NCBI GenBank assembly: GCA_009760855.2
Contig: WPIO01000359.1
Location: forward strand, 1-64,000
Length of the DNA: 64,000 nucleotides
Direction: 5' to 3'
Origin: Cristatella mucedo
Lineage: Eukaryota > Bryozoa > Phylactolaemata > Cristatellidae
Position numbers and translations under genes: made by a program. The notes under the pieces are model-generated. The model worked only from the letters and a program-made list of their open reading frames with translations. It was not told the origin of the DNA and searched no databases. The first letter of the stretch is position 1, and every line of letters begins with the position of its first letter. Shown piece after piece: positions 29,764 through 64,000 of this stretch.

Positions 29764-29775
29764 ATCACGCTGCTC

Positions 29776-31150: not shown

Positions 31151-31180
31151 GTAATAGTAATAGTAATAGTAATAGTAATA
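31151..31180 (+). repeat. GTAATA microsatellite (5 units)
   Basis: Five perfect hexamers, where copy A has only one at the same place. A simple expansion specific to copy C. Confidence 0.92.
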
Positions 31181-31739: not shown

Positions 31740-31750
31740 TAATACTGTGT

Positions 31751-32592: not shown

Positions 32593-32933
32593 ATGCCACC
32601 ACTCTCCCACGTGCATGTGTCCTTGCTGCTACTGGCCATGAGGCCAGTGTCCCTGCTGCAACTTTACATGCTGCCACTGGCCATGCTGCCACCGGCCATC
32701 CTGCCACTGTCGATTCTGCCTGTGTCCATGCTACTTCTGTCCATGATGCAGCTGTCAATGCTGCCTGTGTCCATGCAGCCACTGGTTATGCTGCCTGTGG
32801 GTCTGCTGCCACAGCCGATTCTGCAGTGACTGTATTGCCACTGTCCATTTTGCCCTTGGCCCATGCTGCCACTGTCCGTGCTACCACTTTCAATGCTTCT
32901 ACGGACCTTGTTGACCTTGTGCATGCTGCCCAT
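32593..32933. repeat. 15-bp minisatellite (diverged)
   Basis: About twenty degenerate copies of ctgccactgtccatg. Because 15 is divisible by three, one plus-strand frame gives a five-residue periodic HAATV/HAATG-type peptide and stays open for about 130 codons (32571-32975). No domain or start context supports a gene. Confidence 0.82.
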
Positions 32934-33930: not shown

Positions 33931-33948
33931 TGTAATGTAATGTAATGT
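33931..33948 (-). repeat. 3' tail microsatellite of the retrotransposon
   Basis: Three to four units of TGTAA on the plus strand (TTACA on the minus strand) at the satellite junction. This is consistent with the short tandem 3' tails of CR1/L2-like elements. Confidence 0.7.
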
Positions 33949-34203
33949 ATATCCGTCTGTAACTCTACAAAGTCATAAAGACCATGTGGGTGTTAAGCAG
34001 GAGAGTTTTGTACAGCGTAAGCGGCTTTCGGTACGCATTTGGTAGCCAACAGACTTCGTCTCACGAAACAAAGAGAAATTGGAAAGCATATCAGAGTCAG
34101 GAGAGCAGTTGAGGTAGATAGTAGCATAGAAGTAGCACCTCAGGACCGCTGAAACAGATGTGCCATAGTCGGCAGTAGGAGAGTAGTTGTCGTTGCGTAA
34201 GAA

Positions 34204-40579: not shown

Positions 40580-40592
40580 AACCGCCCCCTAC
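40580..40592. other. Deletion junction in satellite 3 (about 155 bp lost)
   Basis: The sequence jumps from aaaccgcccc to ctactaataaaacc. The equivalent uninterrupted region at 42567-42728 holds about 155 bp more. The interval 39661-41649 (1,988 bp) is shorter than 2,143 by the same amount. A ccc word is shared at the breakpoints. Confidence 0.75.
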
Positions 40593-43429
40593 TAATAAAA
40601 CCATTTACGCGTCTTTTTTCCGTAAATACGTATTCTTGAGTATTATAAATAATCGCGAGAAATGAAGATCATCTTACTGGTAATACCGTCGATCTGCAAG
40701 TGTTCCACACAAGTTATCTCTCCCCAAACAGCTATTTACGCGTGTTTTTTTGGAAATATATAGCCTTTACTGTTAAAAATCGTCCCGTGAAAGAATTACC
40801 TATCTTGCCGGTAGTACCTTCAAACCGCATGAGTTCCGAGTTAGTTATCCGCCCTGCTAAAGCCTTTTACGCGTGTTTTCTTCCGGAAATAAACGTCATT
40901 TAGGGTAATAAATAGTCTCAATAGATTATGACTTATTTTAGTGGTAGTTTCTCATAAGCACAGTCGTTCCGAGTACTTTATTTCCCCTGGTAAAACCATA
41001 TACGCTAGTTTTGTTCCGGTGATAAATTTGCTTCTGTGTCATAAGTATTCACAATAAATACTTCGTCATCCCGCTGGTGGATCATTCATCTGAAGTGATG
41101 ATTATCTTACTAGTAATACATTTCATCCGAAAGCGTTCCGAGTAAGTTATCACTCCTAATAGATCTATTTACGCGTCTATCTTTTGGAAAGATATATCCC
41201 TTAGTGTCATTAATAGTCCTTTAAATAATTAACGATCTTCCTCGTGATACCTTCCAACGGCAGGTATTCCACGTACTTTATCTCTCCTGCAAAATCCGTT
41301 TGAGCGTATTTTCAATCGGAAATATATAGCCTTCACAGTTTTAAGTAGTCTCAACAGACAATTATCATACTGGTAGTACCTACCACCTGCAGCCCTTTGA
41401 AAGACGTTATCCTCCCTGCAAAAATCATGTATGCATCTTTCCTTCCGCAAATATATATCCTTTATTGTTATAATTAATCTTAATTGATCCTTCGTTATCC
41501 CGCTAGTAAATCCTTCAAACCGCCGGCCTTCCGAGTAAGTTATCAAATTTGCTCAAACTACTTACGCGTCTTTTCTTCCGGAAATATATTTTTTAATGTT
41601 ATTGAGCGTCTTAAGAAATAAATCATAAACCTTACGGTAGATCTTTCAAACAGCAGGCGTTGAAGGTAACTTATCCCCCTGCTGAAACTGTTTACGCTCC
41701 TTATTTTTACAGAAATATATGTATCCTTTAGTGCTATAATTAGTCTCAATAAGTACTCCGTTAACCCGTCAGTCGAGCCTTTAAAGCGCCGAGTTTTTGA
41801 GTAAGTTATCTTCCCTGAACAAACCATTTACGCTTCTTTTCTTCCGGAAATATATATCCTTGAGTCGTATATGTTGGCTCTTTAAATAATTAGTTATCTT
41901 ACTAGAGGTACCTTACGTACGCTGGCGTTCCAAGTCAATTATCTACCCTCCCTAAACCATTTACGCGTCTTTGCTGTCCGATTTGTATGTCCTTCAGTGG
42001 TATTATTTGTCTAAATAAATACATCGTTATCCTACTGGTACATCGTTCAAACCTACCCCGTTCCGAGTAAGTTTTTCCCCTGCTAAATCGATTTACGCGT
42101 CTTTTTTCCGGAAATATATTTTTTAGTCTTAATAAGAGTCTCAACAAATAATTCATAAACCCTATGGTAGATCCTTCAAACAGCAGGCGCTGCAGGTAAC
42201 TTATCCCCCTGCTGAAACTGTTTACGCTACTTTTTTGTTACTGAATTCTACACGTCCTTAACGGTTAGAATTAGTCTCGATAAGTACTCCGTTAACCCGT
42301 CGGTAGATCTTGTAAACCGCCGGCTTTTTGAGTAAGTGTTCTTCCCTGCAGAAACAATTTACGCGTCTTTTCTTTTGGAGCTGTGTATCCTTTAGTGATA
42401 CTAATTGTGTCAAAATATGATTTATTAGCCCGCGGGCAGATGCATCAAACCACAGGCGTTTTTCCCTGCTGAGACTTTTTACGCTTCTTTATTCTACTAG
42501 AAATATATATCCGTAATGTTGTCATTATTTTCAATAAATACTTCCTTATCCCTCTGGTCGATCCTTCAAACCGCCCGCTTCCCAAGTAAGTTATCTACTC
42601 TGCTAAACCATTTGCACGTCTTTTCTTCCGGAAATATATACCCTTGATTTTTATATATAGGCTCATCCAATAACTTATTACCTTACAAGTAGTACCTTTG
42701 ACCGAAGGCGTTCCGAGTAAGTTATCCCTACTAATAAAACCATTTACGCGTCTCTTTTCCGTAAATACGTATTCTTGAGTATTATAAATAATCGCGAGAA
42801 ATGAAGATCATCTTACTGGTAATACCTTCGATCTGCAAGTGTTTCACACAAGTTATCTCTCCCCAAACAGCTATTTACGCGTGTTTTTTTGGAAATATAT
42901 AGCCTTTACGTTTAAAAATCGTCTCGTGAAAGAATTACCTATCTTAACCGGTAGTACCTTCAAACCGCATGAGTTCCGAGTTAGTTATCCGCCCTGCTAA
43001 AGCCTTTTACGCGTGTTTTCTTCCGGAAATAAACGTCATTTAGGGTAATAAATAGTCTCAATAGATTATGACTTATTTTAGTGGTAGTTTCTCATAAGCA
43101 CAGTCGTTCCGAGTACTTTATTTCCCCTGGTAAAACCATATACACTAGTTTTGTTCCGGTGATAAATTTGCTTCTGTGTCATAAGTATTCACAATAAATA
43201 CTTCGTCATCCCGCTGGTGGATCATTCATCTGAAGTGATGATTATCTTACTAGTAATACATTTCATCCGCAAATGTTCCGAGTTAGTTATCACTCCAAAT
43301 AGATCTATTTACGCGTCTATCTTTTGGAAAGATATATCCCTTAGTGTCATTAATAGTCCTTTAAATAATTAACGATCTTCCTCGTGATACCTTCCAACGG
43401 CAGGTATTCCACGTACTTTATCTCTCCTG

Positions 43430-43444
43430 CAAAATCCGAGTAAG
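43430..43444. other. Deletion junction in satellite 3 (about 238 bp lost)
   Basis: The sequence jumps from gcaaaatccg to agtaagttatcaac. In 41290-41540 these words are about 238 bp apart, and the interval 41649-43554 is 1,905 bp, 238 less than the modal unit. The breakpoints share ccg. Confidence 0.78.
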
Positions 43445-44792
43445 TTATCAACTTTGCTCAAACTACTTACGCGTCTTTTCTTCCGGAAATATATTTTTTA
43501 ATGTTATTGAGCGTCTCAACAAATAAATCATAAACCTTACGGTAGATCTTTCAAACAGCAGGCGTTGAAGGTAACTTATCCCCCTGCTGAAACTGTTTAC
43601 GCTCCTTATTTTTACAGAAATATATGTATCCTTTAGTGCTATAATTAGTCTCAATAAGTACTCCGTTAACCCGTCAGTCGAGCCTTTAAAGCGCCGAGTT
43701 TTTGAGTAAGTTATCTTCCCTGAACAAACCATTTACGCTTCTTTTTTTCCGGAAATATATATCCTTGAGTCGTATATGTTGGCTCTTTAAATAATTAATT
43801 ATCTTACAAGAGGTACCTTACGACCGCTAGCGTTCCAAGTAAATTATCTACCCTCCCTAAACCATTTACGCGTCTTTGCTGTCCGATTTGTATGTCCTTC
43901 AGTGGTATTATTTGTCTAAATAAATACATCGTTATCCTACTGGTACATCGTTCAAACCTACCCCGTTCCGAGAAAGTTTTTCCCCTGCTAAAATATTTAC
44001 GCGTCTTTATTCCGAAAATATATTTTTTTAGTCATAATAAGTGTCTCAACAAATAATTCATAAACCCAATGGTAGATCCTTCAAACAGTAGGCGTGGCAG
44101 GTAACTTATCCTCCTACTAAAACTTTTTACGCTACTTTTTTCTTACTAAATCCTACACATCCTTGACGGTTAGAATTAGTCTCAATAAGTACTCCGTTAA
44201 CCCGTCGGTAGATCTTGTAAAGCGCCGGCTTTTTGAGTAAGTTGTCTTCCCTGCAGAAACAATTTACGCGTCTTTTCTTTTGGAGCTGTGTATTCTTTAG
44301 TGATACTAATTGTGTCAAAATATGATTTATTAGCCCGCGGGCAGATGCATCAAACCGCAGGCGTCCTTCCATGCTGAGACTTTTTACGCTTCTTTATTCT
44401 ACTAGAAATATATATCCGTAATGTTATCATTATTTTCAATCACTACTTCCTTATCCCTCTGGTGGATCCTTCAAACCGCCCGCTTCCCGAGTAAGTTATC
44501 TACTCTGCTAAACCATTTACGCGTCTTTTCTTCCGGAAATATATACCCTTGATTTTTATATATAGGCTCATCCAATAACTTATTACCTTACAAGTAGTAC
44601 CTTTGACCGCAGGCGTTCCGGGTAAGTTATCCCTACTAATAAAACCATTTACGCGTCTTTTTTCCGTAAATACGTATTCTTGAGTATTATAAATAATCGC
44701 GAGAAATGAAGATCATCTTACTGGTAATACCTTCGATCTGCAAGTGTTCCGAACAAGTTATCTCTCCCGATACAGCTATTTACGCGTGTTTT

Positions 44793-44806
44793 TTTGGAAA
44801 TATATA
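44793..44806. other. Deletion junction in satellite 3 (about 438 bp lost)
   Basis: The word ggaaatatat joins directly to atcccttagtgtc, although in other units it is followed by agcctttac and the second word occurs more than 400 bp later. The interval 43554-45259 is 1,705 bp. Both breakpoints lie in the shared ggaaatatat-like word. Confidence 0.75.
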
Positions 44807-46492
44807 TCCCTTAGTGTCATTAATAGTCCTTTAAATAATTATTGATCTTCCTCGTGATACCTTCCAACAGCAGGTATTCCACGTACTTTATCTCTCCTGC
44901 AAAATCCGTTTGAGCGTATTTTCAATCGGAAATATATAGCCTTCACAGTTTTAAGTAGTCTCAACAGACAATTATCATACTGGTAGTACCTACCACCTGC
45001 AGCCCTTTGAAAGACATTATCCTCCCTGTAAAAATCATGTACGCATCTTTCCTTCCGCAAATATATATCCTTAATTGTTATAATTAATCTTAATTGATCC
45101 TCCGTTATCCCGCTAGTAAATCCTTCAAACCGCCGGCCTTCCGAGTAAGTTATCAACTTTGCTCAAACTACTTACGCGTCTTTTCTTCCGGAAATATATT
45201 TTTTAATGTTATTGAGCGTCTCAACAAATAAATCATAAACCTTACGGTAGATCTTTCAAACAGCAGGCGTTGAAGGTAACTTATCCCCCTGCTGAAACTG
45301 TTTACGCTCCTTATTTTTACAGAAATATATGTATCCTTTAGTGCTATAATTAGTCTCAATAAGTACTCCGTTAACCCGTCAGTCGAGCCTTTAAAGCGCC
45401 GAGTTTTTGAGTAAGTTATCTTCCCTGAACAAACCATTTACGCTTCTTTTTTTCCGGAAATATATATCCTTGAGTCGTATATGTTGGCTCTTTAAATAAT
45501 TAATTATCTTACAAGAGGTACCTTACGACCGCTAGCGTTCCAAGTAAATTATCTACCCTCCCTAAACCATTTACGCGTCTTTGCTGTCCGATTTGTATGT
45601 CCTTCAGTGTAATTATTTGTCTAAATAAATACATCGTTATCCTACTGGTACATCGTTCAAACCTACCCCGTTCCGAGTAAGTTTTTCTCCTGCTAAAATA
45701 TTTACGCGTCTTTATTCCGGAAATATATTTTTTAGTCATAATAAGTGTCTCAACAAATAATTCATAAACCCAATGGTAGATGCTTCAAACAGTAGGCGTT
45801 GCAGGTAACTTATCCTCCTGCTAAAACTGTTTACGCTACTTTTTTCTTTCTTAATCCTACACATCCTTGACGGTTAGAATTAGTCTCAATAAGTACTCCG
45901 TTAACCCGTCGGTAGATCTTGTAAAGCGCCGGCTTTTTGAGTAAGTTGTCTTCCCTGCAGAAACAATTTACGCGTCTTTTCTTTTAGAGCTGTGCATCCT
46001 TCAGTGATACTAATTGTGTCAAAATATGATTTATTAGCCCGCGGGCACATGCATCAAACCGCAGGCGTCCTTCCATGCTGAGACTTTTTACGCTTCTTTA
46101 TTCTACTAGAAATATATATCCGTAATGTTATCATTATTTTCAATCACTACTTCCTTATCCCTATGGTGGATCCTTCAAACCGCCCGCTTCCCGAGTAAGT
46201 TATCTACTCTGCTAAACCATTTACGCGTCTTTTCTTCCGGAAATATATACCCTTGATTTTTATATATAGGCTCATCCAATAACTTATTACCTTACAAGTA
46301 GTACCTTTGACCGCAGGCGATCCGAGTAAGTTATCTCTACTAATAAAACCATTTACGCGTCTTTTTTCCGTAAATACGTATTCTTGAGTATTATAAATAA
46401 TCGCGAGAAATGAAGATCATCTTACTGGTAATACCTTCGATCTGCAAGTGTTTCACACAAGTTATCTCTCCCCAAACAGCTATTTACGCGTG

Positions 46493-46507
46493 TTTTTTTT
46501 TTTTTTT
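46493..46507 (+). other. 15-T run replacing satellite sequence of equal length
   Basis: Other units read seven T followed by ggaaatat and then atagcc. Here the eight bases ggaaatat are replaced by eight T with no change in length. Confidence 0.85.
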
Positions 46508-49500
46508 ATAGCCTTTACGTTTAAAAATCGTCTCGTGAAAGAATTACCTATCTTAACCGGTAGTACCTTCAAACCGCATGAGTTCCGAGTTAGTTATCCG
46601 CCCTGCTAAAGCCTTTTACGCGTTTTTTCTTCCGGAAATAAACGTCATTTAGGGTAATAAATAGTCTCAATAGATTATGACTTATTTTAGTGGTAGTTTC
46701 TCATAAGCACAGTCGTTCCGAGTACTTTATTTCCCCTGGTAAAACCATATACACTAGTTTTGTTCCGGTGATAAATTTGCTTCTGTGTCATAAGTATTCA
46801 CAATAAATACTTCGTCATCCCGCTGGTGGATCATTCATCTGAAGTGATGATGATTATCTTACTAGTAATACATTTCATCCGCAAACGTTCCGAGTTAGTT
46901 ATCACTCCAAATAGATCTATTTACGCGTCTATCTTTTGGAAAGATATATCCCTTAGTGTCATTAATAGTCCTTTAAATAATTAACGATCTTCCTCGTGAT
47001 ACCTTCCAACGGCAGGTATTCCACGTACTTTATCTCTCCTGCAAAATCCGTTTGAGCGTATTTTCAATCGGAAATATATAGCCTTCACAGTTTTAAGTAG
47101 TCTCAACAGACAATTATCATACTGGTAGTACCTACCACCTGCAGCCCTTTGAAAGACATTATCCTCCCTGTAAAAATCATGTACGCATCTTTCCTTTCCG
47201 CAAATATATATCCTTTATTGTTATAATTAATCTTAATTGATGATCCTCCGTTATCCCGCTAGTAAATCCTTGAAACCGCCGGCCTTCCGAGTATGTTATC
47301 AACTTTGCTCAAACTACTTACGCGTCTTTTCTTCCGGAAATATATTTTTTAATGTTATTGAGCGTCTCAACAAATAAATCATAAACCTTACGGTAGATCT
47401 TTCAAACAGCAGGCGTTGAAGGTAACTTATCCCCCTGCTGAAACTGTTTACGCTCCTTATTTTTACAGAAATATATGTATCCTTTAGTGCTATAATTAGT
47501 CTCAATAAGTACTCCGTTAACCCGTCAGTCGAGCCTTTAAAGCGCCGAGTTTTTGAGTAAGTTATCTTCCCTGAACAAACCATTTACGCTTCTTTTTTTC
47601 CGGAAATATATATCCTTGAGTCGTATATGTTGGCTCTTTAAATAATTAATTATCTTACAAGAGGTACCTTACGACCGCTAGCGTTCCAAGTAAATTATCT
47701 ACCCTCCCTAAACCATTTACGCGTCTTTGCTGTCCGATTTGTATGTCCTTCAGTGTAATTATTTGTCTAAATAAATACATCGTTATCCTACTGGTACATC
47801 GTTCAAACCTACCCCGTTCCGAGTAAGTTTTTCTCCTGCTAAAATATTTACGCGTCTTTATTCCGGAAATATATTTTTTAGTCATAATAAGTGTCTCAAC
47901 AAATAATTCATAAACCCAATGGTAGATGCTTCAAACAGTAGGCGTTGCAGGTAACTTATCCTCCTGCTAAAACTGTTTACGCTACTTTTTTCTTACTAAA
48001 TCCTACACATCCTTGACGGATAGAATTAGTCTCAATAAGTACTCCGTTGACCCGTCGGTAGATCTTGTAAACCGCCGGCTTTTTGAATAAGTTGTCTTCC
48101 CTGCAGAAACAATTTACGCGTCTTTTCTTTTGGAGCCGTGTATCCTTTAGTGATACTAATTGTGTCAAAATATGATTTATTAGACCGCGGGCAGATGCAT
48201 CAAACCACAGGCGTTTTTCCCTGCTGAGACTTTTCACGCTTCTTTATTCTACTAGAAATAAATATCCGTAATGTTATCATTATTTTCAATAAATACTTCC
48301 TTATCCCTCTGGTGGATCCTTCAAACCGCCCGCTTCCCAAGTAAGTTATCTACTCCGCTAAACCATTTGCACGTCTTTTCTTCCGGAAATATATACCCTT
48401 AATTTTTATATATAGGCTCATCCAATAACTTATTACCTTACAAGTAGTACCTTTGACCGCAGGCGTTCCGAGTAAGTTATCCCTACTAATAAAACCATTT
48501 ACGCGTCTTTTTTCCGTAAATACGTATTCTTGAGTATTATAAATAATCGCGAGAAATGAAGATCATCTTACTGGTAATACCGTCGATCTGCAAGTGTTTC
48601 ACACAAGTTATCTCTCCCCAAACAGCTATTTACGCGTGTTTTTTTGGAAATATATAGCCTTTACGTTTAAAAATCGTCTCGTGAAAGAATTACCTATCTT
48701 AACCGGTAGTACCTTCAAACCGCATGAGTTCCGAGTTAGTTATCCGCCCTGCTAAAGCCTTTTACGCGTGTTTTCTTCCGGAAATAAACGTCATTTAGGG
48801 TAATAAATAGTCTCAATAGATTATGACTTATTTTAGTGGTAGTTTCTCATAAGCACAGTCGTTCCGAGTACTTTATTTCCCCTGGTAAAACCATATACGC
48901 TAGTTTTGTTACGGTGATAAATTTGCTTCTGTGTCATAAGTATTCACAATAAATACCTCGTCATCCCGCTGGTGGATCATTCATCTGAAGTGATGATTAT
49001 CTTACTAGTAATACATTTCATCCGCAAGCGTTCCGAGTTAGTTATCACTCCAAATAGATCTATTTACGCGTCTATCTTTTGGAAAGATATATCCCTTAGT
49101 GTCATTAATAGTCCTTTAAATAATTAACGATCTTCCTCGTGATACCTTCCAACGGCAGGTATTCCACGTACTTTATCTCTCCTGCAAAATTCGTTTGAGC
49201 GTATTTTCAATCGGAAATATATAGCCTTCACAGTTTTAAGTAGTCTCAACAGACAATTATCATACTGGTAGTACCTACCACCTGCAGCCCTTTGAAAGAC
49301 ATTATCCTCCCTGTAAATATCATGTACGCATCTTTCCTTCCGCAAATATATATCCTTTATTGTTATAATTAATCTTAATTGATCCTCCGTTATCCCGCTA
49401 GTAAATCCTTGAAACCGCCGGCCTTCCGAGTATGTTATCAACTTTGCTCAAACTACTTACGCGTCTTTTCTTCCGGAAATATATTTTTTAAAGTTATTGA

Positions 49501-52500
49501 GCGTCTCAACAAATAAATCATAAACCTTACGGTAGATCATTCAAACAGCAGGCGTTGAAGGTAACTTATCCCCCTGCTGAAACTGTTTACGCTCCTTATT
49601 TTTACAGAAATATATGTATCCTTTAGTGCTATAATTAGTCTCAATAAGTACTCCGTTAACCCGTCAGTCGAGCCTTTAAAGCGCCGAGTTTTTGAGTAAG
49701 TTATCTTCCCTGAACAAACCATTTACGCTTCTTTTTTTCCGGAAATATATATCCTTGAGTCGTATATGTTGGCTCTTTAAATAATTATTATTATCTTACT
49801 AGAGGTACCTTACGACCGCTGGCGTTCCAAGTAAATTATCTACCCTCCCTAAACCATTTACGCGTCTTTGCTGTCCGATTTGTATGTCCTTCAGTGTTAT
49901 TATTTGTCTAAATAAATACATCGTTATCCTACTGGTACATCGTTCAAACCTACCCCGTTCCGAGTAAGTTTTTCTCCTGCTAAAATATTTACGCGTCTTT
50001 ATTCCGGAAATATATTTTTTAGTCATAATAAGTGTCTCAACAAATAATTCATAAACCCAATGGTAGATCCTTCAAACAGTAGGCGTTGCAGGTAACTTAT
50101 CCTCCTGCTAAAACTTTTTACGCTACTTTTTTCTTACTAAATCCTACACATCCTTGACGGTTAGAATTAGTCTCAATAAGTAAGTCCTTTTACTCCGTTA
50201 ACCCGTCGGTAGATCTTGTAAACCGCCGGCTTTTTGAGTATTTTGTCTTCCCTGCAGAAACAATTTACGCGTCTTTTCTTTTAGAGCTGTGCATCCTTCA
50301 GTGATACTAATTGTGTCAAAATATGATTTATTAGCCCGCGGGTAGATGCATCAAACCGCAGGCGGCGTCCTCCCTGCTGAGACTTTTTACGCTTATTTTA
50401 TTCTACTAGAAATATATATCCGTTAATGTTGTCATTATTTTCAATAAATACTTCCTTATCCCTCTGGTGGATCCTTCAAACCGCCCGCTTCCCAAGTAAG
50501 TTATCTACTCCGCTAAACCATTTGCACGTCTTTTCTTCCGGAAATATATACCCTTAATTTTTATATATAGGCTCATCCAATAACTTATTACCTTACAAGT
50601 AGTACCTTTGACCGCAGGCGTTCCGGGTAAGTTATCTCTACTAATAAAACCATTTACGCGACTTTTTTCCGTAAATACGTATTCTTGAGTATTATAAATA
50701 ATCGCGAGAAATGATGATCATCTTACTGGTAATACCTTCGATCTGCAAGTGTTCCGCACAAGTTATCTCTCCCGATACAGCTATTTACGCGTGTTTTTTT
50801 GGAAATATATAGCCTTTACTGTTAACAATCGTCGCGTGAAAAAATTACCTATCTTGCCGGTAGTACCTTCAAACCGCATGAGTTCCGAGTTGGTTATCCG
50901 CCCTGCTAAAGCCTTTTACGCGTGTTTTCTTCCGGAAATAAACGTCATTTAGGGTAATAAATAGTCTCAATAGATTATGACTTATTTCAGTGGTAGTTCC
51001 TCATAACCACAGTCGTTCCGAGTACTTTATTTCCCCTGGTAAAACCATATACGGTAGTTTTGTTCCGGTAATCAGTATGCTTAAGTGTCATAAGTATTCA
51101 CAATAAATACCTCGTCATCCCGATGGTCGATCATTCACTTGAAGTGATGATTATCTTAGTAGAACTACATTTCATCCGCAAGCGTTCCGAATAAGTTATC
51201 ACTCCTAATAGATCTATTTATTCGTCTATCTTTTGGAAATATATATCCCTCAGTGTCATAAATAGTCCTTTAAATAATTAGTTATCTTCCTCGTGATACC
51301 TTCCAACAGCAGGTATTCCACGTACTTTATCTCTCCTGCAAAATCCGTTTGAGCGTATTTTCAATCGGAAATATATAGCCTTCACAGTTTTAAGTAGTCT
51401 CAACAGACAATTATCATACTGGTAGTACCTACCACCTGCAGCCCTTTGAAAGACGTTATCCTCCCTGCAAAAATCATGTACGCATCTTTCCTTCCGCAAA
51501 TATATATCCTTTATTGTTATAATTAATCTTAATTGATCCTTCGTTATCCAGCTAGTAAATCCTTCAAACCGCCGGCCTTCCGAGTAAGTTATCAACTTTG
51601 CTCAAACTACTTACGCGTCTTTTCTTCTGCAAATATATTTTTTAATGTTATTGAGCGTCTCAACAAATAAATCATAAAACTTACGGTAGATCTTTCAAAC
51701 AGCAGGCGTTGAAGGTAACTTATCCCCCTGCTGAAACTGTTTACGCTCCTTATTTTTACAGAAATATATGTATCCTTTAGTGCTATAATTAGTCTCAATA
51801 AGTACTCCGTTAACCCGTCAGTCGAGCCTTTAAAGCGCCGAGTTTTTGAGTAATTTATCTTCCCTGAACAAACCATTTACGCTTCTTTTCTTCCGGAAAT
51901 ATATATCCTTGAGTCCTATATGTTGGCTCTTTAAATAATTAATTATCTTACTAGAGGTACCTTACGACCGCTGGCGTTCCAAGTAAGTTATCTACCCTCC
52001 CTAAACCATTTACGCGTCTTTGCTGTCCGATTTGTATATCCTTTAGTGTTATTATTTGTCACAATAAATACTTCGTTATCCTACTGGTAGATCGTTCAAA
52101 CCGACCGCGTTCCGAGTAAGTTTTTCTCCTGCTAAAATATTTACGCGTGTTTATTCCGGAAATATATTTTTTAGTCCTAATAAGAGTCTCAACAAATGAT
52201 TCATAAACCCTACGGATGATTCTTTAAACAGCAGGCGTTGCAGGTAGCTTATCCCCCTACTGAAACTGTTTACGCTACTTTTTTCTTACTGAATTCTACA
52301 CATCCTTTACGGTTAGAATCACTCTCAATAAGTACTCCGTTAACCCGTCGGTAGATCTTGTAAACCGCCGGCTTTTTGAGTATGTTGTCTTCCCTGCAGA
52401 AACAATTTACGCGTCTTTTCTTTTAGGGCTGTGCATCCTTCAGTGATACTAATTGTGTCAAAATATGATTTATTAGCCCGCGGGCAGATGCATCAAACCG

Positions 52501-55403
52501 CAGGCGTCCTTCCATGCTGAGACTTTTTACGCTTCTTTATTCTACTAGAAATATATATCCGTAATGTTATCATTATTTTCAATAAATACTTTCTTATCCC
52601 TCTGGTGGATCCTTCAAACCGCCTGCCTTCCGAGTAAGTTATGTACTCTGCTAAACCATTTACGCGTCTTTTCTTCCAGAAATATATACACTTGATTTTT
52701 ATTTATAGGCTCATTTAGTAACGTAGTACCTTACAAGTAGTACCTTTGACCGCAGGCGTTCCGAGTAAGTTATCTCTACTAATAAAACCATTTACGCGTC
52801 TTTTTCCGTAAATACGTATTCTTGAGTATTATAAATAATCGCGAGAAATGACGATCAGCTTACTGGTAATACCTTCGATCTGCAAGTGTTCCGCACAAGT
52901 TATCTCTCCCCAAACAGCTATTTACGCGTGTTTTTTTGGAAATATATAGCCTTTACTGTTAACAATCGTCGCGTGAAAAAATTACCTATCTTGCCGGTAG
53001 TACCTTCAAACCGCATGAGTTCCGAGTTAGTTATCCGCCCTGCTAAAGCCTTTTACGCGTGTTTTCTTCCGGAAATAAACGTCATTTAGGGTAATAAATA
53101 GTCTCAATAGATTATGACTTATTTTACTGGTAGTACCTTATAACCGCAGGCGTTCCGAGTACTTTATTTCCCCTGGTAAAACCATATACGCTAGTTTTGT
53201 TCCGGTAATAAATATGCTTCTGTTTCATAAGTATTCACAATAAATACCTCGTCATCCCGATGGTCGATCATTCACTTGAAGTGATGATTATCTTACTAGT
53301 AATACATTCCATCCGCAAGCGTTCCGAATAGGTTATCACTCCTAATAGATCTATTTACGCGTCTATCTTTTGGAAAAATATATCCCTTAGTGTCATAAGT
53401 AGTCCTTTAAATAATTAAGTTTCTTCCTCGTGATACCTTCCAGCAGCAGGTACTCCACGTACTTTATCTCTCCTGCAAAATCCGTTTGAGCGTATTTTCA
53501 ATCGGAAATATATAGCCTTCACAGTTTTAAGTAGTCTCAAAAGACAATTATCATACTGGTAGTACCTACCACCAGCAGCCCTTTGAAAGACGTTATCCTA
53601 CCTGCAAAAATCATGTACCCATCTTTCCTTCCGAAAATATATATCCTTTATTGTTATAATTAATCTTAATTGATCCTTCGTTATCCCGCTAGTAGATCCT
53701 TCAAAACGCCGACCTTCCGAGTAAGTTGTCAACTTTGCTCAAACTACTTACGCGTCTTTTCTTCCGGAAATATATTTTTTAATGTTATTGAGCGTCTCAC
53801 CAAATAAATCATAAACCATACGGTAGATCTTTCAAACAGCAGGCGTTGAAGGTAACTTATCCCCCTGCTGAAACTGTTTACGCTCCTTATTTTTACAGAA
53901 ATATATGTATCCTTTAGTGCTATAATTAGTCTCAATAAGTACTCCGTTAACCCGTCAGTCGAGCATTTAAAGGGCCAAGTTTTTGAGTAAGTTATCGTCC
54001 CTGCACAAACCATTTACGCTTCGTTTCTTCCGGAAATATATATCCTTGAGTCGTATATGTTGGCTCTTTAAATAATTAATTATCTTACTAGAGGTACCTT
54101 ACGACCGCTGGCGTTCCAAGTCAGTTATCTACCCTCCCTAAACCATTTACGCGTCTTTGCTGTCCGATTTGTATGTCCTTCAGTGTTATTATTTGTCTAA
54201 ATAAATACTTCGTTATCCTACCGGTAGATCGTTAAAACCTACCCCGTTCCGAGTTAGTTTTTCTCCTGCTAAAATATTTACGCGTGTTTATTCCGGAAAT
54301 ATATTTTTTAGTCCTAATAAGAGTCTCAACAAATGATTCATAAACCCTATGGATGATTCTTTAAACAGCAGGCGTTGCAGGTAACTTATCCCCCTGCTGA
54401 AACTGTTTACGCTACTTTTTTCTTACTGAATTCTACACGTCCTTTACGGTTAGAATTACTCTCAATAAGTACTTCGTTAACCCGCCAATGGATCTTGTAA
54501 ACCGCCGGCTTTTTGAGTAAGTTGTCTTGCCTGCAAAAACTATTCACGTGCCTTTTCTTTTACAGCTGTATATCCTTTAGTGATACTAATTGTGTCAAAA
54601 TATGATTTATTAGCCCGCGGTGAGATGCATCAAACCGCAGACGTTCTTCTCAACTGAGACTTTTTACGCTTCTTTATTCTACTAGAAATATATATCCGTA
54701 ATGTTATCATTATTTTTAATCTATACTTCCTTATCCCTCTGGTGGATCCTTCAAAACGCCGGCCTTGCTAGTAAGTTATCAACTTTGCTCAAACTACTTA
54801 CGCGTCTTTTCTTTGGGAAATAAATACCCTTGATTTTTATATATAGGCTCATTCAATAACTCATTACCTTACAAGTAGTACCTTTGACCGAAGGCGTTCC
54901 GAGTAAGTTATCTCTACTAATAAAACCATTTACGCGTCTTTTTTTTTTCCGTAAATATGTATCCTTGAGTATTATAAATAATCGCAAGAAATGACGATTA
55001 ACTTACTGGTAATACCTTCGATCTGCAAGTGTTCCGCACAAGTTATCTCTCCCGATACAGCTTTTTACGCGTGTTTTTTTGGAAATATATAGCCTTTACT
55101 GTTAAAAATCCTCCCGTGAAAGAATTACCTATCTTGCCGGTAGTACCTTCAAACCGCATGAGTTCCGAGTTAGTTATCCGCCCTGCTAAAGCCTTTTACG
55201 CGTGTTTTCTTCCGGAAATAAACGTCATTTAGGGTAATAAATAGTCTCAATAGATTATGACTTATTTTACTGGTAGTACCTTATAACCGCAGGCGTTCCG
55301 AGTACTTTATTTCCCCTGGTAAAACCATATACGCTAGTTTTGTTCCGGTAATAAATATGCTTCTGTTTCATAAGTATTCACAATAAATACCTCGTCATCC
55401 CGA

Positions 55404-55440
55404 TGGTGGATCATTCACTTGAAGTGATGATTATCTTACT
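55404..55440 (+). repeat. Extra ~38-bp hairpin segment in one monomer of the higher-order unit
   Basis: The long (about 170-bp) monomer carries an added stretch centred on TCACTT-G-AAGTGA, a perfect 6-bp inverted repeat about one base. The same segment recurs in the other higher-order units, for example near 36950, 38010, 53275, 58610 and 59660. In 41-49 kb it reads tcatctgaagtgatga. Confidence 0.65.
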
Positions 55441-58400
55441 AGTAATACATTCCATCCGCAAGCGTTCCGAATAGGTTATCACTCCTAATAGATCTATTTA
55501 CGCGTCTATCTTTTGGAAATATATATCCCTTAGTGTCATAAGTAGTCCTTTAAATAATTAAGTATCTTCCTCGTGATACCTTCCAACAGCAGGTACTCCA
55601 CGTACTTTATCTCTCCTGCAAAATCCGTTTGAGCGTATTTTCAATCGGAAATATATAGCCTTCACAGTTTTAAGTAGTCTCAACAGACAATTATCATACT
55701 GGTAGTACCTACCACCTGCAGCCCTTTGAAAGACGTTATCCTCCCTGCAAAAATCATGTACGCATCTTTCCTTCCGAAAATATATATCCTTTATTGTTAT
55801 AATTAATCTTAATTGATCCTTCGTTATCCCGCTAGTAGATCCTTCAAAACGCCGACCTTCCGAGTAAGTTGTCAACTTTGCTCAAACTACTTACGCGTCT
55901 TTTCTTCCGGAAATATATTTTTTAATGTTATTGAGCGTCTCAACAAATAAATCATAAACCTTACGGTAGATCTTTCAAACAGCAGGCGTTGAAGGTAACT
56001 TATCCCCCTGCTGAAACTGTTTACGCTCCTTATTTTTTGCAGAAACATATGTATCCTTTAGTGCTATAAGTAGTCTCAATATGTACTCCGTTAACCCGTC
56101 AGTCGAGCCTTTAAACGGCCGAGTTTTTGAGTAAGTTATCGTCCCTGCACAAACCATTTACGCTTCTTTTCTTCCGGAAATATATATCCTTGAGTCGTAT
56201 ATGTTGGCTCTTTAAATAATTAATTATCTTACTAGAGGTACCTTACGACCGCTGGCGTTCCAAGTCAGTTATCTACCCTCCCTAAACCATTTACGCGTCT
56301 TTGCTGTCCGATTTGTATGTCCTTCAGTGTTATTATTTGTCTAAATAAATACTTCGTTATCCTACCGGTAGATCGTTAAAACCTACCCCGTTCCGAGTTA
56401 GTTTTTCTCCTGCTAAAATATTTACGTGTGTTTATTACGGAAATATATTTTTTAGTCTTAATATGAGTCTCAACAAATAATTCATAGACCCAATGGTAGA
56501 TCCTTCAAACAGCAGGCGTTGCAGGTAACTTATCCCCCTGCTGAAACTGTTTACGCTACTTTTTTCTTACTGAATTCTACACATCCTTTACGGTTAGAAT
56601 TACTCTCAATAAGTACTTCGTTAACCCGCCAATGGATCTTGTAAACCGCCGGCTTTTTGAGTAAGTTGTCTTGCCTGCAGATGCAATTCACGTGCCTTTT
56701 CTTTTACAGCTGTGTATCCTTTAGAAATACTAATTGTGTCAAAATATGATTTATTAGCCCGCGGTGAGATGCATAAACCGCAGACGTTCTTCTCAACTGA
56801 GACTTTTTACGCTTCTTTATTCTACTAGAAATATATATCCGTAATGTTATCATTATTTTCAATCTATACTTCCTTGTCCCGCAAGTAGATTCTTCAAAAC
56901 GCCGGCCTTGCGAGTAAGTTATCAACTTTGCTCAAACTACTTACCCGTCTTTCCTTCCGGAAATATATTTTTTAGTGTTAATGAGCGTCTCAACAAATAA
57001 ATCATAAAACTTACAGTAGATCTTTCAAACAGCAGGCGTTGAAGGTAACTTATCCCCTTGCTGAAACTGTTTACGCTCCTTATTTTTTACGTAAATATAT
57101 GTATCCTTTAGTGCTATAATTAGTCTCAATAAGTACTCCGTTAACCCGTCAGTCGAGCCTTTAAACCGCTAAGTTTTTGAGTAAGTTATCGTCCCTGCAC
57201 AAACCATTTACGCTACTTTTCTTCCGGAAATATATATCCTTGACTCGTATAAGTTGGCTCTTTAAATAATTAATTATCTTACTAGAGGTACCTTACGTAT
57301 GCTGGCGTTCCAAGTCAATTATCTACCCTCCCTAAACCATTTACGCGTCTTTGCTGTCCAATTTGTATGTCCTTTAGTAATATTATTTGTCTAAATAAAT
57401 ACTTCGTTATCCTACTGGTGGATCGTTCAAACCTAACCCGTTTTGAGTAAGTTTTTCTCCTGCTAAAATATTTACGCGTCTTTATTCCGGAAATATATTT
57501 TTTAGTCTTAATAAGTGTCTCAACAAATAATTCATAAACCCAATGGTAGATCCTTCAAACTGTAGGCGTTGCAGGTAACTTATCCCCCTGCTGAAACTGT
57601 TTACGCTACTTTTTTCTTACTGAATCCTACACATCCTTGACGGTTAGAATTAGTCTCAATAAGTACTCCGTTAACCCGTCGGTAGATTTTGTAAACCGCC
57701 GGCTTTTTGAGTAAGTTGTCTTGCCATCTGAAACAATTAACGCGTCTTTTCTTCTAGAGCTGTGTATCCTTTAGTGATACTAATCGTGTCAAAATATGAT
57801 TTATTAGCCCGTGGGCAGATGTATCAAACCGAAGACGTTCTTACCTGCTGAGACTTTTTACGCTTCTTTATTCTACTAGAAATATATATCCGTAATGTTA
57901 TCATTATTTTCAATCAATGCTTTCTTATCCCTCTGGTGGATCCTTCAAACCGCCTGCCTTCCGAGTAAGTTATCAACTCTGCTAAACCATTTATGCGTCT
58001 TTTCTTCCGGAAATATATACCCTTGATTTTTATATATAGGCTCATTCAATAACTTATTACCTTACAAGTAGTACCTTTGACCGCAGGCGATCCGAGTAAG
58101 TTATCTCTACTAATAAAACCATATACGCGTCTTTTTTCCGGAAATATGTATCCTTGAGTATTATAAATAATCGCAAGAAATGACGATTAACTTACTGGTA
58201 ATACCTTCGATCTGCAAGTGTTCCGCACAAGTTATCTCTGCCGAAACAGCTATTTACGCGTGTTTTTTTTTGGAATATATAGCCTTTACTGTTAAAAATC
58301 CTCTCGTGAAAGAATTAACTATCTTGCCGGTAGTACCTTCAAACCGCATGAGTTCCGAGTTAGTTATCCGCCCTGCTAAAGCCTTTTACGCGTGTTTTCT

Positions 58401-61400
58401 TCCGGAAATAAACGTCATTTAGGGTAATAAATAGTCTCAATAGATTATGACTTATTTTACTGGTAGTACCTTATAACCGCAGGCGTTCCGAGTACTTTAT
58501 TTCCCCTGGTAAAACCATATACGCTAGTTTTGTTCCGGTAATAAATATGCTTCAGTTTCATAAGTATTCACAATAAATACCTCGTCATCCCGATGGTCGA
58601 TCATTCACTTGAAGTGATGATTATCTTACTAGTAATACTTTCCATCCGCAAGCGTTCCGAACAAGTTATCACTCCTAATAGATCTATTTACGCGTCTATC
58701 TTTTGGAAAGATATATCCCTTAGTGTCATAAATAGTCCTTTAAATAATTAATTATCTTCCTCATGATACCTTCCAACAGCAGGTATTCCACGTACTTGAT
58801 CTCTCCTGCAAAATCCGTTTGAGCGTATTTTCTATCGGAAATATATAGCCTTCACAGTTTTAAGTAGATTCAACAGACAATTATCATACTGGTGGTACCT
58901 ACCACCTGCAGCCGTTTTAAACACGTTAACCTCCCTGCAAAAATCATGTACGCATCTTTCCTTCCGAAAATATATATCCTTTATTGTTATAATTAATCTT
59001 AATTGATCCTTCGTTATCCCGCTAGTAGATCCTTCAAAACGCCGACCTTCCAAGTAAGTTATCAACTTTTACTTACGCGTCTTTCAGTACGATATAGGCT
59101 CATTCAATAACTCATTACCTTACAAGTAGTACCTTTGACCGAAGGCGTTCCGAGTAAGTTATCTCTACTAATAAAACCATTTACGCGTCTTTTTTCCGTA
59201 AACATGTATCCTTGAGTATTATAAATAATCGCAAGAAATGACCATTAACTTACTGGTAATACCTTCGATCTGCAAGTGTTCCGCACAAGTTATCTCTCCC
59301 GATACAGCTTTTTACGCGTGTTTTTTTGGAAATATATAGCCTTTACTGTTAAAAATCCTCCCGTGAAAGAATTACCTATCTTGCCGGTAGTACCTTCAAA
59401 CCGCATGAGTTCCGAGTTAGTTATCCGCCCTGCTAAAGCCTTTTAAGCGTGTTTTCTTCCGGAAATAAACGTCACTTAGGGTAATAAATAGTCTCAACAG
59501 ATTATGACTTATTTTACTGGTAGTACCTTATAACTGCAGGCGTTCCGAGTACTTTATTTCCCCTGGTAAAACCATATACGCTAGTTTTGTTCCGGTAATA
59601 AATATGCTTCTGTTTCATAAGTATTCACAATAAATACCTCGTCATCCCGATGGTCGATCATTCACTTGAAGTGATGATTATCTTACTAGTAATACATTCC
59701 ATCCGCAAGCGTTCCGAATAGGTTATCACTCCTAATAGATCTATTTACGCGTCTATCTTTTGGAAATATATATCCCTTAGTGTCATAAGTAGTCCTTTAA
59801 ATAATTAAGTATCTTCCTCGTGATACCTTCCAGCAGCAGGTACTCCACGTACTTTATCTCTCCTGCAAAATCCGTTTGAGCGTATTTTCAATCGGAAATA
59901 TATAGCCTTCACAGTTTTAAGTAGTCTCAAAAGACAATTATCATACTGGTAGTACCTACCACCTGCAGCCCTTTGAAAGACGTTATCCTCCCTGCAAAGA
60001 TCATGTACGCATCTTTCCTTCCGAAAATATATATCCTTTATTGTTATAATTAATCTTAATTGATCCTTCGTTATCCCGCTAGTAGATCCTTCAAAACGCC
60101 GACCTTCCGAGTAAGTTGTCAACTTTGCTCAAACTACTTACGCGTCTTTTCTTCCGGAAATATATTTTTTAATGTTATTGAGCGTCTCAACAAATAAATC
60201 ATAAACCATACGGTAGATCTTTCAAACAGCAGGCGTTGAAGGTAACTTATCCCCCTGCTGAAACTGTTTTCGCTCCTTATTTTTACAGAAATATATGTAT
60301 CCTTTAGTGCTATAATTAGTCTCAATACGTACTCCGTTAACCAGTCAGTCGAGCATTTAAACGGCCAAGTTTTTGAGTAAGTTATCGTCCCTGCACAAAC
60401 CATTTACGCTTCTTTTCTTCCGGAAATATATATCCTTGAGTCGTATATGTTGGCTCTTTAAATAATTAATTATCTTACTAGAGGTACCTTACGACCGCTG
60501 GCGTTCCAAGTCAGTTATCTACCCTCCCTAAACCATTTACGCGTCTTTGCTGTCCGATTTGTATGTCCTTCAGTGTTATTATTTGTCTAAATAAATACTT
60601 CGTTATCCTACCGGTAGATCGTTAAAACCTACCCCGTTCCGAGTAAGTTTTTTTCCTGCTAAAATATTTACGTGTGTTTATTCCGGAAATATATTTTTTA
60701 GTCTTAATAAGAGTCTCAACAAATAATTCATAAACCCAATGGTAGATCCTTCAAACAGCAGGCGTTGCAGGTAACTTATCCCCCTGCTGAAACTGTTTAC
60801 GCTACTTTTTTCTTACTGAATTCTACACGTCCTTTACGGTTAGAATTACTCTCAATAAGTACTTCGTTAACCGACCAATGGATCTTGTAAACCGCCGGCT
60901 TTTTGAGTAAGTTGTCTTGCCTGCAGAAACAATTCACGTGCCTTTTCTTTTACAGCTGTGTATCCTTTAGTGATACTAATTGTGTCAAAATATGATTTAT
61001 TAGCCCGCGGTGAGATGCATCAAACCGCAGACGTTCTTCTCAACTGAGACTTTTTACGCTACTTTATTCTACTAGAAATATATATCCGTAATGTTATCAT
61101 TATTTTCAATCTATACTTCCTTATCCCTCTGGTGGATCCTTCAAAACGCTGGCCTTGCTAGTAAGTTATCATCTTTGCTCAAACTACTTACGCGTCTTTT
61201 CTTTGGGAAATAAATACCCTTGATTTTTATATATAGGCTCATTCAATAACTCATTACCTTACAAGTAGTACCTTTGACCGAAGGCGTTCCGAGTAAGTTA
61301 TCTCTACTAATAAAACCATTTACGCGTCTTTTTTCCGTAAATATGTATCCTTGAGTATTATAAATAATCGCAAGAAATGACCATTAACTTACTGGTAATA

Positions 61401-61789
61401 TCTTCAATCTGCAAGTGTTCCGCACAAGTTATCTCTCCCGATACAGCTTTTTACGCGTGTTTTTTTGGAAATATATAGCCTTTACTGTTAAAAATCCTCC
61501 CGTGAAAGAATTACCTATCTTGCCGGTAGTACCTTCAAACCGCATGAGTTCCGAGTTAGTTATCCGCCCTGCTAAAGCCTTTTACGCGTGTTTTCTTCCG
61601 GAAATAAACGTCATTTAGGGTAATAAATAGTCTCAATAGATTATGACTTATTTTACTGGTAGTACCTTATAACCGCAGGCGTTCCGAGTACTTTATTTCC
61701 CCTGGTAAAACCATATACGCTAGTTTTGTTCCGGTAATAAATATGCTTCTGTTTCATAAGTATTCACAATAAATACCTCGTCATCCCGA

Positions 61790-61802
61790 TGGAGGAGTAG
61801 TA
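61790..61802. other. Deletion junction in satellite 3 (about 293 bp lost)
   Basis: The sequence jumps from cccgatggagga to gtagtacctaccacc. The same words are about 293 bp apart at 55404-55703. The interval 60225-62075 is 1,850 bp, 293 shorter than the modal 2,143. Confidence 0.78.
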
Positions 61803-61833
61803 CCTACCACCTGCAGCCCTTTGAAAGACGTTA

Positions 61834-61840
61834 AAAAAAA
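61834..61840 (+). other. A-run replacing satellite sequence of equal length
   Basis: Other units read gacgttatcctccctgc. Here tcctccc is replaced by seven A, with the flanks and total length unchanged. It lies 40 bp from the deletion junction at 61796. Confidence 0.8.
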
Positions 61841-64000
61841 TGCAAAAATCATGTACGCATCTTTCCTTCCGAAAATATATATCCTTTATTGTTATAATTA
61901 ATCTTAATTGATCCTTCGTTATCCCGCTAGTAGATCCTTCAAAACGCCGACCTTCCGAGTAAGTTGTCAACTTTGCTCAAACTACTTACGCGTCTTTTTC
62001 TTCCGGAATTATATTTTTTTAATGTTATTGAGCGTCTCAACAAATAAATCATAAACCTTACGGTAGATCTTTCAAACAGCAGGCGTTGAAGGTAACTTAT
62101 CCCCCTGCTGAAACTGTTTACGCTCCTTATTTTTACAGAAATATATGTATCCTTTAGTGCTATAAGTAGTCTCAATATGTACTCCGTTAACCCGTCAGTC
62201 GAGCCTTTAAACGGCCGAGTTTTTGAGTAAGTTATCGTCCCTGCACAAACCATTTACGCTTCTTTTCTTCCGGAAATATATATCCTTGAGTCGTATATGT
62301 TGGCTCTTTAAATAATTAATTATCTTACTAGAGGTACCTTACGACCGCTGGCGTTCCAAGTCAGTTATCTACCCTCCCTAAACCATTTACGCGTCTTTGC
62401 TGTCCGATTTGTATGTCCTTCAGTGTTATTATTTGTCTAAATAAATACTTCGTTATCCTACCGGTAGATCGTTAAAACCTACCCCGTTCCGAGTAAGTTT
62501 TTTTCCTGCTAAAATATTTACGTGTGTTTATTACGGAAATATATTTTTTAGTCTTACTAAGAGTCTCAACAAATAATTCATAAACCCAATGGTAGATCCT
62601 TCAAACAGCAGGCGTTGCAGGTAACTTATCCCCCTGCTGAAACTGTTTACGCTACTTTTTTCTTACTGAATTCTACACGTCCTTTACAGTTAGAATTACT
62701 CTCAATAAGTACTTCGTTAACCCGCCAATGGATCTTGTAAACCGCCGGCTTTTTGAGTAAGTTGTCTTGCCTGCAGATGCAATTCACGTGCCTTTTCTTT
62801 TACAGCTGTGTATCCTTTAGTGATACTAATTGTGTCAAAATATGATTTATTAGCCCGCGGTGAGATGCATCAAACCGCAGACGTTCTTCTCAACTGAGAC
62901 TTTTTACGCTTCTTTATTCTACTAGAAATATATATCCGTAATGTTATCATTATTTTCAATCTATACTTCCTTATCCCGCAAGTAGATTCTTCAAAACGCC
63001 GGCCTTGCGAGTAAGTTATCAACTTTGCTCAAACTACTTACCCGTCTTTCCTTCCGGAAATATATTTTTTAGTGTTAATGAGCGTCTCAACAAATAAATC
63101 ATAAAACTTACGGTAGATCTTTCAAACAGCAGGCGTTGAAGGTAACTTATCCCCTTGCTGAAACTGTTTACGCTCCTTATTTTTTACATAAATATATGTA
63201 TCCTTTAGTGCTATAATTAGTCTCAATAAGTACTCCGTTAACCCGTCAGTCGAGCATTTAAACGGCCAAGTTTTTGAGTAAGTTATCGTCCCTGCACAAA
63301 CCATTTACGCTTCTTTTCTTCCGGAAATATATATCGTTGAGTCGTATATGTTGGCTCTTTAAATAATTAATTATCTTACTAGAGGTACCTTACGACCGCT
63401 GGCGTTCCAAGTCAGTTATCTACCCTCCCTAAACCATTTACGCGTCTTTGCTGTCCGATTTGTATGTCCTTCAGTGTTATTATTTGTCTAAATAAATACT
63501 TCGTTATCCTACCGGTAGATCGTTAAAACCTACCCCGTTCCGAGTTAGTTTTTCTCCTGCTAAAATATTTACGTGTGTTTATTCCGGAAATATATTTTTT
63601 AGTCCTAATATGAGTCTCAACAAATAATTCATAAACCCAATGGTAGATCCTTCAAACAGCAGGCGTTGCAGGTAACTTATCCCCCTGCTGAAACTGTTTA
63701 CGCTACTTTTTTCTTACTGAATTCTACACGTCCTTTACGGTTAGAATTACTCTCAATAAGTACTTCGTTAACCCGCCAATGGATCTTGTAAACCGCCGGC
63801 TTTTTGAGTAAGTTGTCTTGCCTGCAAAAACTATTCACGTGCCTTTTCTTTTACAGCTGTGCATCCTTTAGTGATACTAATTGTGTCAAAATATGATTTG
63901 TTAGCCCGCGGTAAGATGTATCAAACCGCAGACGTTCTTCTCAACTGAGACTTTTTACGCTTCTTTATTCTACTAGAAATATATATCCGTAATGTTATCA

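Follow-up and report, generated by a model that had tools for sequence, protein, structure and literature searches.

Introduction

Satellites with a two-level pattern are best known from primate centromeres, and primates also provide the best descriptions of long, regular higher-order repeats (HORs) whose families are array-specific. In primate alpha-satellite HORs, monomers within a unit are typically 20–40% diverged and the units are far more alike; HOR blocks with only 80–90% shared identity have been described in orangutan centromeres (both in excerpts of PMC12428378). In the Tribolium satellites TCAST and TmSat, monomers are found in higher-order arrays, on unplaced scaffolds (PMC7598501, in part) or genome-wide (PMC13081366, in part). 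TCAST-containing HORs mix different subfamilies with extraneous sequence (same part of PMC7598501), and regular beetle HORs are usually dimeric according to passages of a review (PMC5615363). The centromere HOR of switchgrass has 1,131-bp units, each with six monomers plus one that is truncated, and among 171 species with Sanger data, 76 showed clear HORs, in a study that assumes the centromeric satellite to be the most abundant tandem repeat of a genome (Melters 2013, PMC4053949, sections thereof). This count makes the pattern less special than in the original prediction for the locus described here, which had HORs known from primate alpha satellite and a few other centromeric satellites.

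The locus lies in a 64,000-nucleotide stretch of DNA (the window), part of a contig of 69,101 b (C287). As in a Willard-type HOR, monomers one unit apart are much more similar (0.957 at a lag of 16 monomers) than those at lags other than 16 and 32 (0.62–0.66, up to lag 39), and monomers within a unit are about 20–40% diverged on average (mean identity 0.646). Willard-type units usually diverge by <5%; unit pairs here are 0.933–0.980 identical, with four of ten above 0.95. Array-specific families, variant units, and diverged edge monomers are features shared with primate alpha satellite. The differences are a 133-bp rather than ~171-bp monomer (198 of 220 segments are 120–139 b), a window without a CENP-B box, a host that is not a primate, and a visible array of ~34 kb that is broken off by the contig end. 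As far as the cited parts of the sources go, the arrangement is reminiscent of the invertebrate satellites TCAST and TmSat, with monomers in higher-order arrays, but differs from the Tribolium HORs in being a regular 16-mer of one family. It likewise resembles the switchgrass HOR in combining several full monomers with one of odd length, but that plant repeat has fewer monomers per unit. In an invertebrate, a 16-mer whose sister arrays differ in unit length would make it possible to ask whether persistent long satellites always come to show these exchange dynamics, and whether centromeres outside vertebrates are marked by HORs.

Organization of the Regular Units

The main array of the 133-bp satellite has a single orientation (+ strand) and occupies positions 35366..64000 of the window; as predicted, it leaves the window, with monomer matches persisting to C287:69101, the end of the contig. 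The 220 segments obtained by profile-HMM segmentation lie between 32.9 kb and the window end. Other satellites are neighbors of the array in the window.

The 133-bp satellite forms a genuine 16-monomer HOR. Eighty monomers at 45171–55889 make up five consecutive units on the + strand: unit 1 (45171..47316, 2146 b; 0.980 identical to unit 2), unit 2 (47317..49455, 2139 b), unit 3 (49456..51609, 2154 b), unit 4 (51610..53746, 2137 b), and unit 5 (53747..55889, 2143 b), all five delimited by type order and unit comparison. The predicted near-constant lengths of 2137–2154 bp are thus recovered, for this regular stretch only and not for the whole array; the unit register is arbitrary, and the total of 10,719 b equals the size of the interval originally predicted, offset by 88 b. 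In the interval, monomers at lag 16 are on average 0.957 identical (n = 64) and those at lag 32 are 0.940 identical (n = 48), compared to 0.621–0.657 at the remaining lags from 1 to 39, and the maximum lag-16 identity after 2,000 shuffles of monomer order was 0.697. These values bear out the proposed HOR of ~2.14 kb, with units far more alike than adjacent monomers. Its suggested likeness to alpha satellite in two-level organization is also supported, other contigs carrying different HORs of the same monomer.

Across the whole array, lag-16 identity is only 0.757 because variant units disrupt the register. The order from A to P and back to A is followed in 200 of 216 monomer-to-monomer steps, and no lag dominates in the final 5 kb of C287 (best 0.719 at lag 13). 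Tandem arrays are hard to assemble, and C287 is short and ends inside the array, as might be expected if the regular units were an assembly artefact. However, the units differ from one another by 2–7%, and different regular HORs are found on other contigs, which makes such an artefact extremely improbable.

Identity drops with distance: adjacent units are 0.949–0.980 identical, compared to 0.933 for the first and last, within a pairwise range of 0.933–0.980 that exceeds 0.95 in four of ten pairs. Same-type identity in C287 declines from 0.957 at 1.5–3 kb to 0.922 at 20–30 kb, a modest trend (rho −0.22) computed from pairs that are not independent; at 0.939, the nearest bin (<1.5 kb, n = 35) lies lower than the next.

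Every monomer in the unit is a distinct type, more than 5% apart from the others. Between-type identity of the 16 consensuses averages 0.646 (sd 0.055), with extremes of 0.854 for A/E (the largest) and 0.51 (the lowest printed), both outside the 20–40% divergence range. Position 13 (type M) is the odd-length monomer of ~169 b, with a partial duplication; HMM segmentation and unit comparison place one copy, of 172 b compared to 169 b in the consensus, at 46748..46919 (+). Four types recur within the unit at 75% identity (A/E, B/F, C/I, and H/P). Within the unit, lag 4 shows weak enrichment (permutation p 0.027) and lag 8 has a p of 0.41, so a build-up from smaller blocks rests on few pairs.

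Two further candidates were considered for the monomer. Its first 12 bases, TTTACGCGTCTT, are the best-conserved window across types (0.90, permutation p 0.02); because this stretch had served as the seed anchor of the segmentation, neither its conservation nor a conserved protein-binding box is claimed. Single-strand folding of one monomer, type I from unit 2, is not superior to that of its shuffles, 178 of 200 of which fold at least as well (z +1.2).

Variant Units and a Model for Their Origin

Variant units of 8 to 24 monomer lengths, delimited by type order and all on the + strand, flank the regular stretch on both sides. On the upstream side, an irregular stretch (35497..39572) contains a partial A–F run and then a repeated I–P half, including a fused monomer of 232 b (37294..37525, +; a single HMM segment with two partial matches). 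It is followed by a 15-monomer unit without type I (39573..41560), a 14-monomer unit with N joined to A (41561..43465), and a 13-monomer unit with J joined to N (43466..45170). Downstream lie an 8-monomer half unit of A–H only (55890..56939), a unit of ~24 monomer lengths in 23 segments (56940..60136) with a fused monomer of 233 b at 58947, a 14-monomer unit (60137..61984), and another 8-monomer A–H half unit (61985..63036). The two fused monomers are 96.6% identical. Twelve order breaks occur past 35.4 kb, among them H>A twice and P>I, joints that indicate that each half (A–H and I–P) occurs on its own too. In a two-parent hybrid trial, one of six low-scoring monomers gained clearly, and the 232–233-b monomers could not be fitted; the monomer at 61714, in the downstream 14-monomer unit, fits an M/O hybrid at 0.877 compared to 0.704 for M alone. 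The variant units, like the fused monomers, suggest unequal exchange; some variant joints could be assembly errors in long repeats.

A HOR with an exchange-driven origin is our main reading, with a probability of roughly 0.9. Judging from the pattern, an ancestral monomer would have given rise to a tandem array whose copies drifted to ~65% identity. Short-block duplications (A–B to E–F, C to I, D to H, and H to P) may then have produced the A–H and I–P blocks. Subsequently, A–P would have turned into the amplification unit, spread and homogenized by unequal exchange and gene conversion within the C287 array, processes that would leave neighboring units more alike than distant ones.

The Array Border

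The array edge (32932..33930, +; HMM segmentation and identity) consists of diverged monomers out of HOR order and falls within a 95.4% match to contig C156. Best-copy identity is 0.86 at the edge (32.9–35.9 kb) compared to 0.96–0.99 in the core. An insertion (33931..35365, − strand) that carries a broken piece of a reverse transcriptase separates this edge from the core array; PF00078 (RVT_1) matches at 34937–35368 (E 2.6e-15), and the other three pieces gave 0 families. By our reading, the insertion is LINE-like.

A flank module adjoins the array at 27703..31525 (+), with an insert at ~28848–30567. A second copy at 1..2115 (+; 91–93%; module comparison, HMM) holds one degenerate 133-bp monomer at 86–207; a third, partial copy lies at 26601..27094 (+; 89%, module comparison). 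Monomer blocks adjoin one point of the module (window ~357–359), three times in C31 and once in C50, as they might if the satellite had travelled inside a transposable element containing internal tandem repeats and one such copy had expanded into the array. A query with window positions 600–1100, however, finds just 20 module matches in the 572-Mb assembly, 19 of them on satellite-bearing contigs. This distribution is unlike that of a dispersed mobile element, and an origin of this kind is very unlikely.

Related Arrays and Their Turnover

Among the matches listed, at least 11 contigs carry the monomer, which has at least 332 matches in the assembly. Some other contigs bear different HORs of the 133-bp monomer, with units of 2.80 or 2.41 kb or with blocks and an added 765-b spacer; C156 has units of 2.80 and 2.41 kb, compared to 2.14 kb in C287. 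With lags that count segments, not monomers (start-to-start gaps >260 b were dropped), identity at lag 19 is 0.86 in C156 at 1–10 kb. The arrays in C156 at 20–30 kb (0.976) and at the C31 end (0.985) are more uniform than the C287 units (93–98%).

Identity of the same type averages 0.93–0.95 within an array and 0.81–0.89 between arrays, for monomers below 200 b and at least 75% identical to some C287 type. Within C156, types C and P reach only 0.82–0.90, owing to the pooling of several C- and P-like monomers from each unit. Reciprocal best matches to the 25 C156 clusters exist for 14 of the 16 C287 types, and the A-like type of C156 fits A and E equally (0.854 and 0.853). Type by type, the two arrays are ~82% identical. 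Their common border is 95.4% identical beside the array and 83–95% farther out, among the matches listed. Given a shared border, another unit, and ~82% type identity, the arrays seem to turn over faster than the borders, as primate alpha satellite does. Tentatively, and from sequence comparison, C287 and C156 might be homologous loci (alleles or a recent segmental duplication) sharing a 95% identical border, in which whole HOR arrays would be swapped or re-seeded much faster than the borders evolve; such alpha-satellite-like turnover would have arisen independently outside vertebrates. The pair offers a ready test of the speed of array replacement between conserved borders. On two other contigs (C92 and C399), a ribosomal DNA spacer origin was considered for composite units of 12–14 kb and rejected, parts of both contigs having no Rfam match.

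Chromosomal Placement of the Satellite

Seven of the eight satellite-bearing contigs whose size was seen are <1.2 Mb, and the eighth (C111, 24.8 Mb) has a single 6-monomer block at 13.16 Mb within the portion read. The array on C31 extends to the contig end. The CENP-B box (consensus NTTCGNNNNANNCGGGN) was sought in the 64-kb window, where one match with at most one mismatch lies at 16484, outside the array, with 6.25 expected. Many centromeres lack this box.

For a centromeric or pericentromeric placement speak the satellite neighbors, the sizes of the seven contigs, the C31 end, and the diverged edge beside a more uniform core; the window without a CENP-B box and the block on C111 do not help it. 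On balance, the chances of such a location are about even, and the array most likely behaves as a passively evolving heterochromatin block. An array belonging to a functional centromere, with CENP-A on C287 or a sister HOR array, would fit the alpha-satellite-like organization with array-specific HORs, the transposon-like insertion and diverged edge that adjoin a core of greater uniformity, the other satellites in the window, and the C31 array reaching its contig end. Against it stand the absence of a CENP-B box from the window, C287 units just 93–98% alike, below C156 at 20–30 kb and the C31 end, and the number of monomer matches in the assembly (at least 332). This interpretation is unlikely, and a kinetochore function of the 133-bp satellite family is equally doubtful.

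Co-occurring satellites and a shared flank module would suit subtelomeres too. Both are seen here, the module being common to several contigs, and the C31 array again extends to the contig end, so that the satellite could belong to subtelomeric or interstitial (knob-like) heterochromatin instead; no positive sign of this was found, and we regard it as possible but somewhat doubtful. The telomere repeat (TTAGGG)6 has 0 matches in the assembly and so gives no marker for placement.

The monomer core has no match in viral_contigs or genome_contigs, and the unit none in plasmids or phages, as expected because the satellite is eukaryotic. Searches for RNA genes gave no family at gathering score and no tRNA. 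The host is an animal, putatively a protostome; mitochondrial COX1 on contig C688 of the assembly reads without a stop under table 5 (the invertebrate code), the sole code applied.

A higher-order repeat of 16 monomers

The window's right half consists of a satellite array whose monomer measures about 133 bp. With a profile HMM derived from the window sequence, these monomers map to 32932–33930 and from 35366 to the end, with three stray matches at 86–207 and 27655–27910, and 198 of 220 array segments obtained by segmentation are 120–139 b long. The window spans bases 1–64000 of contig C287 (69,101 b), one of 688 contigs in a 572-Mb assembly.

The original prediction held that the satellite forms a higher-order repeat (HOR) of 16 monomers, with units closer to each other than adjacent monomers are, and this organization was confirmed. 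Between 45259 and 55977, monomer identity is 95.7% at lag 16 and 94.0% at lag 32, versus 62–66% at the remaining lags from 1 to 39; when monomer order was shuffled, lag-16 identity did not exceed 69.7% in 2,000 trials. Over the whole array, lag-16 identity is lower (75.7%) because of variant units. Five canonical units extend from 45171 to 55889, with lengths of 2146, 2139, 2154, 2137, and 2143 b and pairwise identities of 93.3–98.0%. The predicted unit lengths are exact to the base, in a register that differs by 88 bases and is arbitrary.

The 16 monomer types, designated A to P in their order within the unit, have a mean identity of 64.6%. Alignment reveals four closer pairs (A/E, 0.86; B/F, C/I, and H/P, 0.79 each), with D/H at 0.73, and type M is lengthened to about 169 b via a partial internal duplication. 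Since similarity inside the unit is weakly raised at lag 4 (p = 0.027) and not enriched at lag 8 (p = 0.41), a stepwise assembly of the unit out of smaller blocks is plausible, though support for it is thin.

Variant units and the array edge

The A-to-P cycle is kept in 200 of 216 successive steps, and 12 of the 16 breaks are located after 35.4 kb. The array is irregular up to 39.6 kb, where units of 15, 14, and 13 monomers begin to lead up to the canonical ones, which are followed by units of 8, about 24 (23 segments), 14, and 8 monomers. Each half of the unit also repeats alone, A–H with H-to-A joints at 56806 and 62903, and I–P with a P-to-I joint at 38350. A fused monomer of 232–233 b at 37294 recurs at 58947 (96.6% identity between both), with a third relative at contig position 65024 (0.90 and 0.93 to the other two). 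Such variant units, half repeats, and a recurrent fused monomer would be the expected residue of unequal exchange. A two-parent hybrid trial clearly improved one of six monomers (61714). Same-type identity drops with distance from 0.957 at 1.5–3 kb to 0.922 at 20–30 kb, a modest trend among non-independent pairs, with 0.939 in the nearest bin.

At the edge (32932–33930), the monomers are not in HOR order. Best-copy identity is 0.86 in the edge bin (32.9–35.9 kb) versus 0.96–0.99 in core bins, and identity to the family consensus is similar (six edge values of 0.71–0.85; core mean 0.756). A 1.4-kb insertion (33931–35365) divides edge from core; in one of the four pieces searched, the minus strand encodes part of a reverse transcriptase (RVT_1, 2.6e-15). 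The arrangement recalls alpha satellite, in which a diverged, transposon-invaded edge adjoins a more uniform core.

Sister arrays

Genome searches returned 77 matches with the HOR unit and at least 332 with the monomer consensus, on the same 11 contigs among the matches listed. The sister arrays carry HORs of their own. On contig C156, the period is 2.80 kb at 20–30 kb (0.976 at 19 segments) and 2.41 kb at 36–42 kb (0.928), and identity at 19 segments is 0.86 at 1–10 kb. The end of C31 has a 2.41-kb period (0.985) that includes a 765-b spacer, and on C92 and C399 blocks of 11 HMM matches (about 1.34 kb) recur every 12–14 kb (0.997, n = 7 each). The C31 spacer is internally repetitive and lies between successive blocks of 133-bp monomers, its copies being 92–98% alike among the matches listed. 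The C92 stretches with the composite units of about 12–14 kb also contain long Leu/Ser-rich open frames resembling a translated simple repeat.

The types of C156 are common to C287 and run from G to P, then C-D-P-C-D-A-B and others; when the 16 types of C287 were compared with 25 clusters of C156 monomers, 14 of them found a reciprocal best partner. Mean same-type identity is 0.93–0.95 within arrays, 0.81–0.83 for C287 versus C156, and 0.83 for C287 versus C593, and 13–16% of 203 C31 monomers reach 75% identity to any C287 type. A consensus drawn from the 16 types and one drawn from 42 monomers of the edge and other arrays disagree, by our count, at 3 of 133 positions, so the arrays share a single ancestral monomer.

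Borders versus arrays

The most interesting aspect of the finding is the contrast between borders and arrays. The segment 32103–34754 takes in the edge monomers as well as most of the insertion; it aligns with C156 over 2,655 columns at 95.4% identity, and the C156 array begins where this alignment ends, within the insertion. A flank module (1–2115) was searched across the genome with window bases 600–1100, yielding 20 matches: 3 on C287, 3 on C156, 8 on C31, 4 on C92, and 1 each on C50 and C244 (the last short). The C156 copies are 91–95% identical and in the same order but reversed, with an outer gap of 38 kb versus 26 kb in C287. Elsewhere the border is less similar: among the matches listed, 31581–32244 aligns with C156 at 87% and 27384–27564 at 84% in opposite orientation; a stretch of 124-bp satellite in the border aligns at 90%, and a 6-monomer piece amid that satellite at 70.7 kb of C156 is without counterpart in C287. 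The two contigs thus look like homologous borders (alleles or paralogues), and the arrays they enclose have different units and are about 18% apart.

Candidate centromeric location

We regard the array as an exchange-driven HOR satellite in heterochromatin, with about even odds that its candidate centromeric or pericentromeric location is correct. No CENP-B box was found within the 64-kb window. (TTAGGG)6 had 0 matches in the 572-Mb assembly; the telomeres may be absent from the assembly, may have escaped the search, or may consist of another repeat.

One survey reported clear HORs for 76 of the 171 species that had Sanger data (PMC4053949). A 2017 review describes regular HORs of beetles as usually dimeric and complex HORs in insects and mammals (PMC5615363), and orangutan centromeres contain HOR blocks just 80–90% alike (PMC12428378). 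Among the open-licence papers listed in literature searches, a set with the primary Tribolium HOR paper outside it, titles and abstract beginnings name no regular invertebrate HOR of at least 16 monomers. The finding is a good new example of an already known kind.

Neighboring repeats and the mitochondrial contig

The second satellite, of about 124 bp, occupies 2116–4750 and 5962–10930 (TRF also gives 248- and 371-bp periods), and has relatives on C593 and C156 close to the 133-bp satellite. It is split by a 1.2-kb insert (about 4762–5957) that starts with TG, ends with CA, has TTAT on both sides, and by eye appears solo-LTR-like. A minisatellite follows at 11024–26601 (15.6 kb; 16-bp unit CTGCCAGGGTGAGCTG, about 971 copies, 65% matches). 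The flank-module copy at 27703–31525 holds a 1.7-kb insert (28848–30567), possibly another solo LTR, from which the copy at 1–2115 is free.

On the mitochondrial contig C688, COX1 has no stop under the invertebrate code (table 5, the sole code applied), as fits an animal host that is probably a protostome. The gene order is ATP6-COX1-ND3, names other than COX1 being recognized by eye. Between ND1 and ND3, two open frames each occur twice at a spacing of 2,115 b (3632/5747 and 4176/6291), which suggests a duplicated non-coding stretch.
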